Shown here one piece after another: positions 19,515 through 23,331 of a stretch of DNA of 64,000 bases (within the stretch, counting starts at the first letter, position 1; every line of letters begins with the position of its first letter). The translations under genes were made by a program, and so were the position numbers. The stretch is from Spirochaetota bacterium (lineage in GTDB: Bacteria; Spirochaetota; UBA4802; UBA5550), in contig JALOTL010000004.1 in the NCBI GenBank assembly GCA_025457915.1, positions 124,001-188,000 of the forward strand, given 5' to 3'. The notes under the pieces are model-generated. The model was not told where the DNA came from. It saw only the letters and a list, made by a program, of their open reading frames with translations, and made no database searches.

Positions 19515-20120
19515 ATGAATGAATCGCAGGAATTCCAGCTGAGGATTTTTTACCTGAAAAAGAAAATTCTTTTCCCGGGATGCATGATCAATGTCTCGAT
19601 CAACCCGTCGGATATTTCGGACCAGCTCAAAAAAGGGGAAAAAATACTCGCCTATTCGATAAGAAACTATTTCGACATTATTTTCTGCCGTAACCGCACA
19701 GCGACGCTTTCCGAGGTCTCAGAAATAGAAACCGGCGAATCCGTAAAAATCCAGCTGAAGGGCCTCATGAGGGTCAGGATAAAAAAAATCAGCAAAAAAC
19801 AGAACGCGTTTTTCAAAGTGATAACGGATGAAACCCGGGAGGTCCAGGAAACCCTCAGGGAGGAACTGAGAAAAAAATCCCAGGAGCTGGTTTTTCTGAT
19901 AAACGTGGAGGAATCGGACAGGCTGATCAACCTCCTTAACTTCATGGTCGAGCCGAGCCAGCTGACGGATTTCCTGGCAAATTACTTCATCCTGGATTTT
20001 CCGCAGAGATACGTTCTGTATTACGAGCTCGACGTGAAGAAGCGCTCATTAAAACTCATAACGATTCTGGATGCGCTGATAGAAAAACTGAAAAAAAAGA
20101 GGGAATCCGAATCCAAATGA
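19515..20120 (+). CDS. Stand-alone LON substrate-binding-domain protein
   Basis: 201 residues that match only the N-terminal domain of Lon protease (PF02190): the opening LKKKILFPGCMINVSINPS (Lon has PLRDVVVFPGMVxPL), ATLSEVSEIETGESVKIQL, RVRIKKI, and the helical end NLLNFMVEPSQLTDFLANYF with DFPQRYVLYYELDVKKRS. There is no AAA+ or protease domain. LON-domain-only proteins exist in many bacteria; they may act as adaptors or substrate selectors for Lon, but this is not established. It overlaps the next gene by 4 bases (ATGA), so the pair is translationally coupled. Confidence 0.8.
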   Translation: MNESQEFQLRIFYLKKKILFPGCMINVSINPSDISDQLKKGEKILAYSIRNYFDIIFCRNRTATLSEVSEIETGESVKIQLKGLMRVRIKKISKKQNAFFKVITDETREVQETLREELRKKSQELVFLINVEESDRLINLLNFMVEPSQLTDFLANYFILDFPQRYVLYYELDVKKRSLKLITILDALIEKLKKKRESESK

Positions 20121-20563
20121 AAAAAACGGCCATAGGAAAAGACGCCTACTACCATATAGCATGGTCGCCCGTGCACAAATACGACAAGTATTCCGCAACC
20201 AGGATTGTCCCTGACCTTGCCGGGATATTCTGCCTTCTCGGCAAAGAGGGCGACAGGTTCAGGTACCTTATTTTCTACAGCTGCTGGAGGGACGGGTGCA
20301 GGGTCGGGCTAAAAAAATTTCTCGACCAGGACATGTCGAAACACATCGAGATCGTGAGGCAGCTTGACTTCAACAACCTTTACTTCAGGTTCACGGTGAT
20401 AGAGGAAAGCCTCAAGGACATGCAGGACATCATGTACTGGCTGGTGCAGACCTACTCGCCTGAATTCAACAATGCCGAGGGCATCCAGGACTCGAAAAGA
20501 TACGCCAGCATATACCTGAAGGAAACTGAAATCGAAGGCGACTCCATCATAGAAAGGCTTTAA
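20117..20563 (+). CDS. Hypothetical protein coupled to the LON-domain protein
   Basis: 148 residues. Starts at the ATGA overlap with the preceding gene. No secure family. The PDLAGIFCLLGKEGDRFRYL segment followed by LKKFLD faintly recalls the GIY-YIG nuclease fold, but the catalytic residues are not evident, so I do not call it one. No signal peptide or membrane helix. Probably works with the LON-domain protein. It converges with the next gene, the two stop codons overlapping. Confidence 0.65.
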   Translation: MKKTAIGKDAYYHIAWSPVHKYDKYSATRIVPDLAGIFCLLGKEGDRFRYLIFYSCWRDGCRVGLKKFLDQDMSKHIEIVRQLDFNNLYFRFTVIEESLKDMQDIMYWLVQTYSPEFNNAEGIQDSKRYASIYLKETEIEGDSIIERL

Positions 20564-21201
20564 TCTCCGGAAAGCAGTATCATCTCCCTCGTGAAGATAT
20601 GACCCAGGTCATATTTGATGAGGAAAAATTCCAGTATGTATTTCAGCCTGGCGGCCGTGTCCAGCGGCGATGACAGCCTTTCGTCGGAGTGCATCGAAAA
20701 CTGCTGGAGCCTCTTCACGTTAAGGCTCCTCTTCCCCGGATCGCTCGTCATTATGTCGCCCTTTATAAGCCTGTATGTTTCATAAACGGATTTTATTATC
20801 TGGTCGGAGGTAATCAGGTTTGCCAGGTACAGGTTCGTATCGGGATTGTTGATGTTCCTTGTAAAAAATTTCAGGATGTAGAGAATGATCTCGGGAAAAA
20901 GGTTGTTGTTCATGATCTCTATTACCTTTTTTTCAAGCTCCGTATCCATCATCCTCTTGGTCGGGTAGGCCAGGTTGGGCACATAAAGGTTCCCGTTCTG
21001 GACCTTGTAGTATATGAAGTCCAGGAACCTGTCCAGAATGTTCTTCATGATGAAATCGTGCTCCTCGGTGGACTTCTCAAGAAGTATATCCGCGACCTCG
21101 GCCGGATGCCTTGATTTAAGCAGCTCCTCGAAATCCACGAAGCTCACCTCGCTGAAGTCGAATTCACCCCTGTATTTGTAGCGGAACCTTTTGTTCATCA
21201 T
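20560..21201 (-). CDS. Hypothetical helical protein at the end of the por-yidD run
   Basis: 213 residues, cytoplasmic, mostly helical, with no recognised domain. Features are an aromatic N-terminus (MMNKRFRYKYRGEFDFSE), a Tyr/Leu-rich centre (NNLFPEIILYILKFFTRN) and a C-terminal LKYILEFFLIKYDLG. It begins 20 bases after the TPR gene stop and so may belong to the same transcript. A second Met at 21198 is an alternative start. Confidence 0.65.
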   Translation of the reverse strand: MMNKRFRYKYRGEFDFSEVSFVDFEELLKSRHPAEVADILLEKSTEEHDFIMKNILDRFLDFIYYKVQNGNLYVPNLAYPTKRMMDTELEKKVIEIMNNNLFPEIILYILKFFTRNINNPDTNLYLANLITSDQIIKSVYETYRLIKGDIMTSDPGKRSLNVKRLQQFSMHSDERLSSPLDTAARLKYILEFFLIKYDLGHIFTREMILLSGD

Positions 21202-21221: not shown

Positions 21222-22070
21222 TTAAAATGAAGTGCCAATGGACAGTTTCACGCTTTTAAGAAAATCCGCGCCGTTATTATATTCATCGACATTTTTTACC
21301 GCGCTGTAAACAGAATACTGGTAAAAAGTGGCCCCGGCGAGGGAAAAAAACACGAGCTGGTAATAATTCTTGTTCCTGTACCCGTTATAAATCAAATACC
21401 CGCAGGCGGCGTTCGTCGCCAGTGTGACGAAACCCAGAAAATGCTTCCCGGTGTAAAAGTGCCCGAACCCTGGCAGGACAAGCGATCCGAGAACGGATAC
21501 AAGGGCGCTTTTCCTGCCCCTCTGCTTTTCGGCGCTTATCATGTCGCCCAGCCTGCGGAGCTCTTCAGCGTGGATCCCGGAAGGATAGAGATCATGGTAG
21601 TTCTTCATTTCCCGCTCCGCATTCGCCAGGTCCATTGAAAGCGCGGCCGCGTAGCACATGTCCCTTCCGGCCTTCTCACCGAACCGTCCCCGCGGATAAT
21701 TCTTACTGTACTCGAGAAATTCGAAAAAGGCGCTCTTGACGTTTCCCGTCATAAGGCTGATCCTTCCAAGCGAATACAGGGACTCCTCGCCTTCAGGGGA
21801 CCCGGGATATTCCGTCATGCAGACCGCGAGCCTTTCCCTGGCTACGGCCGCATTCCCGCCGTGGAAATAAGCCTTGCCCATCAGGAGAAGGCTCTTCCCG
21901 TAAAACCTGCCCGCGGGATACAGAACCTGGTATCTCTTCAGCTCCGTGATGGCCTGGTAGTATTCACCGTTTCTCATGCTCATGCCGGCGAGTTCCATGA
22001 TCTCGATTTCTCCGGCCTCGAGGAAGGAACAGCACAGCAGCAGAAGCGCGGTCGCGGCCGTTCTTTTCAT
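21222..22070 (-). CDS. TPR protein with C-terminal two-helix LPGxGxxYxGK module
   Basis: 282 residues. A signal peptide (MKRTAATALLLLCCSFLEAG) precedes about five tetratricopeptide-like repeats (residues 25-175), for example NGEYYQAITELKRYQVLYP. The C-terminus has a short pair of membrane helices introduced by LGSLVLPGFGHFYTGKHFLG, a motif seen in TM2/DUF5683-type proteins. Thus a periplasm-facing TPR domain is tethered to the inner membrane by its C-terminus. The start overlaps the previous gene stop by 4 bases. The upstream gene encodes a protein with the same C-terminal module. Confidence 0.75.
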   Translation of the reverse strand: MKRTAATALLLLCCSFLEAGEIEIMELAGMSMRNGEYYQAITELKRYQVLYPAGRFYGKSLLLMGKAYFHGGNAAVARERLAVCMTEYPGSPEGEESLYSLGRISLMTGNVKSAFFEFLEYSKNYPRGRFGEKAGRDMCYAAALSMDLANAEREMKNYHDLYPSGIHAEELRRLGDMISAEKQRGRKSALVSVLGSLVLPGFGHFYTGKHFLGFVTLATNAACGYLIYNGYRNKNYYQLVFFSLAGATFYQYSVYSAVKNVDEYNNGADFLKSVKLSIGTSF

Positions 22071-22939
22071 TTAAAAATCCTTTTAAAGTCAATGTCCCTC
22101 TCGGGCCTGTAATCCGGAACGCAGCGCCTTTTGAATTCCCTCCTGAATTCCCCGATGGCCGCTTCATTCGATGAAGCGGCGGAATTGTATGCCCCGTAAA
22201 GCCCGCCCGCGTAAAAAAGCGCGGAGAAAAAAACCATGGTGTAGAACATCTGATCGTTGCCTTTTCGATGGAAGGCATAGGCTGCCGATGCCGTCGATGC
22301 CACGCCCGCGAGGGTGAGCAGGCCGGCGATGTACTTGCCTGAATAGACCTGTCCGAGGCCCGGCAGCACGGCGGAAAGGCCCACGGCCAGTCCCCTTGAT
22401 TTCAATCCCGGATTTTCACAGGCGCGGAGGGCACTCGCAAGATCGGCCGCGTCATCAAAAACGCCGTAAAGGGCGATCTCCTCTTTCATCTTTACGCAAT
22501 CCCCGGACCATGAGTAAATCTCGGTCCTTCTCAGCAGGAGCTCGCGCCTCAACGGAGAGTCGAGAGACGCATAATCGCCGGAGAGGGGGACAAGGGCCGC
22601 GTCGCGCATGCCCAGCATCAGGAGCGACTGGGACTCCAGCATCCTGTACCTGAATTCGCTCCTGTCGGCGCCGCGCGACTTGATGTTCTTCAAAACGGTT
22701 TCGTACTGGCCGCCCAGGAAATAGCAGGCGTCGATGAAGAATGTCATCTCCCTCCCGGATACGGTCTTCCCTTCGTATGAAGAAAGCCTTCTCGCCTCGG
22801 AGATGGCGTCGAAATATCTTCTCTCCGAAAAAAGCTCCCTTATGAATCTTTTCTGCCTGCCGCTCCAGCCGTCATCCGCACGCGCATGCTGAATCGGGAG
22901 AAGGGCGAAAATGAGCACAATGCTTGTTATGTATTTCAT
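22067..22939 (-). CDS. TPR-like protein with C-terminal two-helix LPGxGxxYxGK module
   Basis: 290 residues. Signal peptide (MKYITSIVLIFALLPIQHARA), a helical repeat region (about 25-175) with weak TPR character such as SERRYFDAISEARRLSSYEG, then GLSAVLPGLGQVYSGKYIAG and two hydrophobic helices. It is a paralogue in layout of the next gene and overlaps it and yidD by 4 bases each, so the three proteins are probably made in fixed ratio and may form one complex. Confidence 0.73.
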   Translation of the reverse strand: MKYITSIVLIFALLPIQHARADDGWSGRQKRFIRELFSERRYFDAISEARRLSSYEGKTVSGREMTFFIDACYFLGGQYETVLKNIKSRGADRSEFRYRMLESQSLLMLGMRDAALVPLSGDYASLDSPLRRELLLRRTEIYSWSGDCVKMKEEIALYGVFDDAADLASALRACENPGLKSRGLAVGLSAVLPGLGQVYSGKYIAGLLTLAGVASTASAAYAFHRKGNDQMFYTMVFFSALFYAGGLYGAYNSAASSNEAAIGEFRREFKRRCVPDYRPERDIDFKRIFK

Positions 22940-23331
22940 TTCCCCTCGAAATCCGGGAGCGGGTCCGGTCCGGGTTTACTGGAGGGATTGCACCTGAGGA
23001 TCCTGTCGCCGGCCATCAGGGCCCCGGCGAGCGCGCCGTATTTTTCGACCGCCGACCTGCCGTAAACGCTGCATACCGGTCTGTACCTGCAGTTAGGCCC
23101 GTCCTGCGGCGAAATGAAAACCTGGAAGAACCTTATCATGAGGTAGGCACCGCCCTGGATCCCCCCGAACAGGGAGGAGCCGCCGTGACCGTGCGCGTGC
23201 GGGGATCCGCGCATCTGGCCGTCGGCCACGAGAACGTCCGCGTCCCATGGCGCGAACCCGGTCCCGGTCCGGGCGACCGCGCATGTCGATATTAAAATTA
23301 TTGCCGCAAGAGCCGCGTATCGGATTGTCAT
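22936..23331 (-). CDS. yidD: YidD-family protein with N-terminal export signal
   Basis: 131 residues against 70-90 for usual YidD. The YidD domain (about 63-125) is intact: LMIRFFQVFISPQDGPNCRY, RPVCSVYGRSAVEKYGALAG and ILRCNPSSKPGPDPLP, with the three conserved cysteines C81, C87 and C114. Ordinary YidD is cytoplasmic and assists YidC insertion, next to rnpA and yidC. This one has an added signal peptide (residues 1-20, IILISTC, perhaps a lipobox) and a His/Gly-rich linker, and sits between porB (12 bases away) and two TPR membrane proteins. An outward-facing YidD with a new role is likely. Confidence 0.85.
   Translation of the reverse strand: MTIRYAALAAIILISTCAVARTGTGFAPWDADVLVADGQMRGSPHAHGHGGSSLFGGIQGGAYLMIRFFQVFISPQDGPNCRYRPVCSVYGRSAVEKYGALAGALMAGDRILRCNPSSKPGPDPLPDFEGK

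Follow-up and report, generated by a model that had tools for sequence, protein, structure and literature searches.

The window analysed here is a stretch of 64,000 nucleotides from a genome of the Spirochaetota, and its minus strand carries at 21222-23331 a set of three genes, encoding a YidD protein and two helical-repeat membrane proteins (hereafter referred to as TPR1 and TPR2), with open reading frames at 22936-23331, 22067-22939 and 21222-22070, respectively. The overlap at both the yidD/TPR1 and the TPR1/TPR2 junctions is exactly 4 bases, as described in the initial annotation of the locus. TPR2 is followed in most loci (about 25) by a gene for a 213-aa protein (20560-21201, minus strand) that has no apparent signal peptide and belongs to no Pfam family; it is a possible last gene of the operon, and its position may be inherited synteny. 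Window positions 19515-20563 encode a protein that has the Lon N-terminal domain alone, as well as a conserved protein of 148 aa with no Pfam family; both genes are convergent with the triplet and syntenic across the order.

The first gene encodes a YidD paralogue of 131 amino acids, predicted to be exported. Its YidD domain is genuine, with matches to PF01809 (76.4 bits, cut-off 27; 1.4e-21, residues 63-124) and to TIGR00278 (70.9 bits, cut-off 40; 5.7e-20). Residues 1-20 (MTIRYAALAAIILISTCAVA; 23272-23331) constitute a predicted signal peptide with a signal peptidase I (SPase I) site between AVA and RT, and the mature N-terminus carries the motif FxPWxADVxVGDE at residues 26-38 (23218-23256), in which F26, P28, W29 and D37 are nearly invariant in an alignment of 24 sequences. 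The domain itself (22960-23145), delimited by the Pfam match and the alignments, ends at residue 124 and contains three conserved Cys residues and the exported-type signature SPQDGP..C / [AGSTV]DR. The structure model of the protein is of moderate quality (pLDDT 71, pTM 0.49), and neither a sequence search nor a Foldseek fold search returned a PDB match. The His/Gly-rich linker pointed out in the initial annotation is real in the window copy, but it is not a family-wide property, as at least three His residues are present in 7 of 28 relatives only (mean 8.8% His). It was therefore rejected as a defining feature, the mature N-terminal motif, rather than the linker, being the conserved element.

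TPR1 (290 aa) is composed of an N-terminal signal or anchor, a helical repeat domain and a C-terminal membrane hairpin; the hairpin region (about residues 183-250; 22190-22393) bears the motif LPGLGQVYSGK, and S189, P193, G194, G196, Y243 and G245 are invariant in the 27 sequences of alignment A1. TPR2 (282 aa) has a predicted signal peptide, a BamD/YbgF-type TPR domain (residues 21-182; 21525-22010) and a C-terminal membrane hairpin with LPGFGHFYTGK (residues 189-265; 21276-21506), in which P200, G201 and Y206 are invariant. A hydrophobic N-terminus is seen in both partners, as is the LPGxGxxYxGK end with two hydrophobic helices that was first reported. In the AlphaFold2 model of TPR2 (pLDDT 92.4), the TPR helices run from residues 21-33 to 168-182 and are followed by two long hairpin helices (210-232 and 236-265) and an amphipathic tail, and Foldseek matched the TPR part to consensus TPRs, BamD and YbgF. 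Profile searches agree, with YfiO (7.7e-12; 45.9 bits, over the Pfam cut-off of 25) and TPR_6 (1.2e-8) as matches, while the scores against TIGR03302 (BamD; 46.1 bits) and TIGR02795 (47 bits) lie under the respective cut-offs of 81.4 and 90. The helical repeats ascribed to both partners are therefore clear TPRs in TPR2; the profile search gave no TPR match above cut-off for TPR1, though it is a homologue of TPR2.

Matches of TPR1 and TPR2 to DUF5683 (PF18935) are below the cut-off of 26.7 bits (19.9 bits, 7.6e-4, and 13.1 bits, respectively), and none above it was found anywhere in the window's genome. TPR_21 (YfgM, PF09976) gave no match in either protein. BamD is a lipoprotein without a membrane span, whereas the N-terminus of TPR2 has no lipobox with Gly, Ala or Ser before a Cys, and its model shows two long hydrophobic C-terminal helices. 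The last residue of TPR2 is Phe (codon at 21225-21227) in all 28 aligned orthologues, as it is in most partners of exported YidDs in families f18, f22 and f27, and never in TPR1. TPR2 and most of the YidD-paired partners have an alternating hydrophobic tail ending in this Phe, resembling a C-terminal recognition signal (alignment A2).

YidD is widespread, and the canonical protein is a cytoplasmic helper of YidC. Two YidD loci are present in the window's 3.66-Mb genome, and the canonical yidD beside rnpA and yidC, which had been expected in the same genome, was found at L001, where rnpA (1073-1453) and yidD (1450-1716) are followed by a YidC reading frame, the names rnpA and YidC being read off the translations. 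The window's yidD sits outside this context. In a phylogenetic tree of 79 YidD domains, 31 canonical sequences (two of them from Bacillota) were split from all 48 exported ones by a branch with support values of 97/91; the inner forks are weak because the alignment is short (74 columns). Most exported copies have SPxDG ahead of the first Cys, and [AGSTV]-D-R replaces the canonical basic stretch. As regards relatives in other phyla, a single scan of genome contigs yielded YidDs of the canonical type only, from Bacillota, and in a tblastn search of plasmids the matches to the exported YidD were confined to the YidD domain, none of them covering 80% of the query.

Conservation of the triplet in other genomes, on which the initial annotation had made its case depend, was observed within the order. 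YidD was identified in 36 of 39 relatives, most of which have two copies, and in 30 loci, the window included, the second yidD is immediately followed by TPR1. TPR2 comes next after TPR1 in 28 of these 30, the other two being L042, where the contig ends, and L047, where TPR2 is missing at this place. The layout is not a matter of chance, because the gene order is conserved in 30 loci. With start codons chosen mechanically, an overlap of exactly 4 bases occurs nine times at yidD-TPR1 and twelve times at TPR1-TPR2, the window included, and the other junctions are overlapping or short. A tally of 46 genomes of the order, drawn from two phylum searches and counting strong YidD matches, gives yidD together with TPR1 in 36, neither in nine, TPR1 alone in one and YidD alone in none; the genome with TPR1 only is 71% complete and four of the nine with neither are at least 93% complete. 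Part of this co-occurrence pattern is inherited synteny or assembly gaps. Family f3 of the order is without the triplet, which is therefore dispensable there. The genes upstream of the triplet vary between loci, and a link to the upstream 2-oxoacid oxidoreductase genes was discarded since these are not kept in relatives. A long-standing coupling of yidD and the TPR genes is well supported by these comparisons of gene order.

Export of the second YidD copy is supported by several converging features of the sequences. Whereas canonical YidD is short and has no signal peptide, all 28 alignable second copies have a hydrophobic N-terminal segment that ends in an SPase I-type site a few residues before F-x-P-W; one further second copy (L048) is without the FxPW motif. 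The post-signal segment in the YidD domain is poorly hydrophobic, carries a basic residue at a conserved position (Arg, in rare cases Lys) and was scored as non-membrane on an approximate membrane-span scale, which was applied also to the fusions below. The N-terminus thus resembles a signal peptide that is cleaved off, in line with its earlier designation as an export signal rather than a cytoplasmic anchor, and a second span that would return YidD to the cytoplasm is lacking on this scale. At L149, a single chain of 375 amino acids comprises a signal peptide, YidD, a TPR region and a hairpin, and YidD and the TPR region are not separated by a membrane span. Further, in ten f24 genomes (L150:3829-4923, L163-L171) an exported domain of about 250 amino acids is fused N-terminally to YidD without an intervening span, and TPR-hairpin genes, one or two in number, come next after the fusion gene. 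The YidD of L157 has an apparent lipobox (VLGC), indicative of a lipoprotein-like form. The initial proposal of a YidD fold outside the cytoplasm is borne out, as far as predicted signal peptides and gene fusions can tell; export of YidD into the same compartment as the TPR domains is well supported by sequence, and a cytoplasmic position of the domain is unlikely because of the SPase I sites, the fusions without a span and the L157 lipobox.

The association extends to other families of the phylum. An exported YidD adjoins a TPR-hairpin gene in f5 (as a third copy), f10, f18, f22, f24, f27, f28, f30 and f46, and a triplet with two TPR-hairpin genes occurs in f30 and f24, while in f34 (L157, L158) the yidD and TPR-hairpin genes are adjacent in opposite orientations. 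Solitary exported YidDs are found in f22 and f46, and the solitary exported copies at L103, L106, L108, L110, L123 and L124 have Asp (RDNP) where the third conserved Cys would be. The third YidD of f5 (L062:2490-2975 and L119:5555-6001) is divergent, with an insertion near the C-terminus and a TPR-hairpin partner. Operons of f22 and f46 (L109:191-2651, L104, L107, L111, L162) include one or more hairpin proteins, a protein of ~165 aa and an outer-membrane-like protein of ~370 aa upstream of yidD-TPR. At L122:5455-6924 the reading frame of an outer-membrane-like gene continues through a nine-T run into yidD, either as a fusion or as an assembly error; the 489-aa reading frame was set aside as evidence because such a homopolymer may be an assembly error. 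A gene for a Borrelia P13-like membrane protein (L149:2680-3297; PF05628, 1.2e-7) is located just 5' of the YidD-TPR fusion, and in family f43 (L160:1360-1866) a YidD-like domain lies behind N-terminal membrane segments, outside any TPR context.

A third TPR-hairpin paralogue in the window's genome (L095:5097-5993, minus strand) begins 24 bases after the end of secF, which is itself preceded by yajC and secD. TPR1, TPR2 and this paralogue are three supported groups (SH-aLRT 97, 100 and 100). In each of the 24 loci read, its orthologue is directly 3' of secF; ribD comes after it wherever the contig continues, and yajC is upstream where the locus reaches that far; these are not 24 independent events, since gene order within the order is partly inherited. 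In two families outside the order the exported yidD itself is behind secF, in the order secD-secF-yidD-TPR-hairpin at L096 and secD-secF-yidD at L113, which are counted as one or two events, in addition to that of the order, because the two YidDs belong to one shared clade. A pulling action of SecDF on its substrates, exerted from the periplasm, has been proposed (PMC8082313). The secDF linkage, absent from the initial annotation, is the best clue to the function of the module and its strongest functional lead, although the association with SecDF-YajC is genetic only and the module proteins are not homologues of SecDF.

Taken together, the gene content, the predicted export and the secDF linkage favour, with a probability of roughly one half or slightly above, an envelope module in which a Sec-exported YidD and two hairpin-anchored TPR proteins would form one complex at the periplasmic exit of Sec, near SecDF. 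YidD would leave the cytoplasm through Sec and stay attached to the inner membrane on its periplasmic face, lying on the outer leaflet via its amphipathic helix, and TPR1 and TPR2 would be anchored in the inner membrane by their C-terminal hairpins with the TPR domains toward the periplasm. Acting where proteins leave the Sec holotranslocon, next to SecDF, the complex may receive or retain emerging exported or membrane proteins and aid one of the last steps, such as release, insertion or hand-off, in a way that would resemble YfgM-PpiD in E. coli, and the secF-linked TPR-hairpin paralogue may belong to this machinery as a sister unit. That the proteins act as one complex, on which side the hairpin tail lies, the contact with Sec and the role are what we infer from these patterns. 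A wider and more tentative proposal, held at less than even odds, is that the YidD fold is not bound to the cytoplasmic side and may have founded, in the Spirochaetota, an accessory complex on the periplasmic side of the SecDF/Sec holotranslocon that is built of exported YidD and TPR-hairpin anchors, handles exiting proteins and has no described counterpart.

Counting against a site of action at Sec, the f22 pair is near an outer-membrane-like protein and there are LolA-like neighbours and fusions, observations that would suit a role further along the trafficking route. The BamD/YbgF-like TPRs, together with a LolA-like partner, might accordingly serve as a periplasmic relay that carries outer-membrane proteins or lipoproteins to the outer membrane, with the Sec linkage reflecting merely the origin of the cargo. 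BamD, YbgF and CpoB TPRs are indeed the nearest to those of TPR2, the f22 operons include the protein with outer-membrane-like features, a LolA_like gene (4.4e-4, below the Pfam cut-off) is upstream of YidD-TPR in L119, and the f24 YidD fusions show LolA_like and DUF4292 matches in two of ten each (best 0.0012). However, every LolA match (PF17131/PF03548; two of the ten fusions and L119) is below the Pfam cut-off, profile comparison with true LolA gives a probability of 6%, TPR2 is predicted to be anchored in the inner membrane and has no lipobox, and separate LolA genes are present in G000. Such a relay is rather unlikely, though it is the most serious competitor of the Sec-exit complex.

It is improbable that the exported YidD does separate work, membrane-active or related to metals, with the TPR proteins as mere tethers. 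The former name of PF01809, the haemolytic domain (PMC3573977), the solitary exported YidDs that have lost the third Cys and the His-rich linkers of some copies would be in keeping with it, but the strict pairing with TPR-hairpin proteins in the order, the fusion to one of them, the lack of conservation of the linker and the secF linkage are at odds with it. Even less credence can be given to an uncleaved anchor that leaves the YidD domain in, or back in, the cytoplasm as a second YidC helper: the domain does retain the canonical core, including the three Cys, and canonical YidD is a helper of YidC, but SPase I sites in 28 of 28 sequences, the poorly hydrophobic segment with its Arg or Lys, the span-free fusions to exported domains and the apparent lipoprotein form of L157 speak against it. 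Neutral synteny of old neighbours with no joint function is the least probable of all, for although the flanking 213-aa and Lon-N genes are likewise syntenic in the order, the YidD-TPR pairing is kept in distant families where the other neighbours are not, and gene fusion and co-loss are also seen.

The Spirochaetota include the treponemes and leptospires, and envelope assembly in the phylum is poorly known; the three proteins are concrete, testable candidate envelope-biogenesis factors for it. The parts are known folds, and their combination and location match no described system found in the open literature, in which a full-text search (subscription papers lay outside it) returned no paper describing an exported YidD-TPR system.

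Among the known systems, canonical YidD, encoded together with YidC (PMC10941002), shares with the exported form the same domain over curated cut-offs, the amphipathic helix, the three conserved Cys and the (D)PVP end; the exported form differs in its signal peptide, the FxPWxADV motif and the SPQDGP and [AGSTV]DR signatures, in its separate branch outside the rnpA-yidC context and in its linkage to TPR-hairpin genes and secDF. With the same conserved core in an exported paralogue, it seems that the core is able to function across the membrane from the cytoplasm as well, and this would limit the models of YidD that need ribosome or other cytoplasmic contacts. TPR2 is like BamD/YfiO and YbgF/CpoB in the sequence and fold of its N-terminal TPR domain and differs from them by sub-cut-off family scores, the missing lipobox and the C-terminal inner-membrane hairpin, while DUF5683 has the LPGxGQxYxG hairpin in common with TPR1 and TPR2, which match it below threshold and have a TPR domain in front. 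The encoding of the third paralogue and some exported yidDs right behind secF relates the module to SecDF-YajC. In E. coli, the inner-membrane TPR protein YfgM acts together with PpiD at SecYEG (PMC9643414), which offers a working analogy: a periplasmic TPR protein that is anchored in the membrane and has a partner where Sec substrates exit; the number of YfgM (PF09976) matches was dropped as a replacement test, being too noisy as many TPR proteins match. In YfgM a single N-terminal span precedes the TPRs, an order that is reversed in TPR1 and TPR2, where the TPR domain precedes a C-terminal hairpin, and the partner, PpiD in E. coli, is here a YidD fold with a putative contact to Sec.
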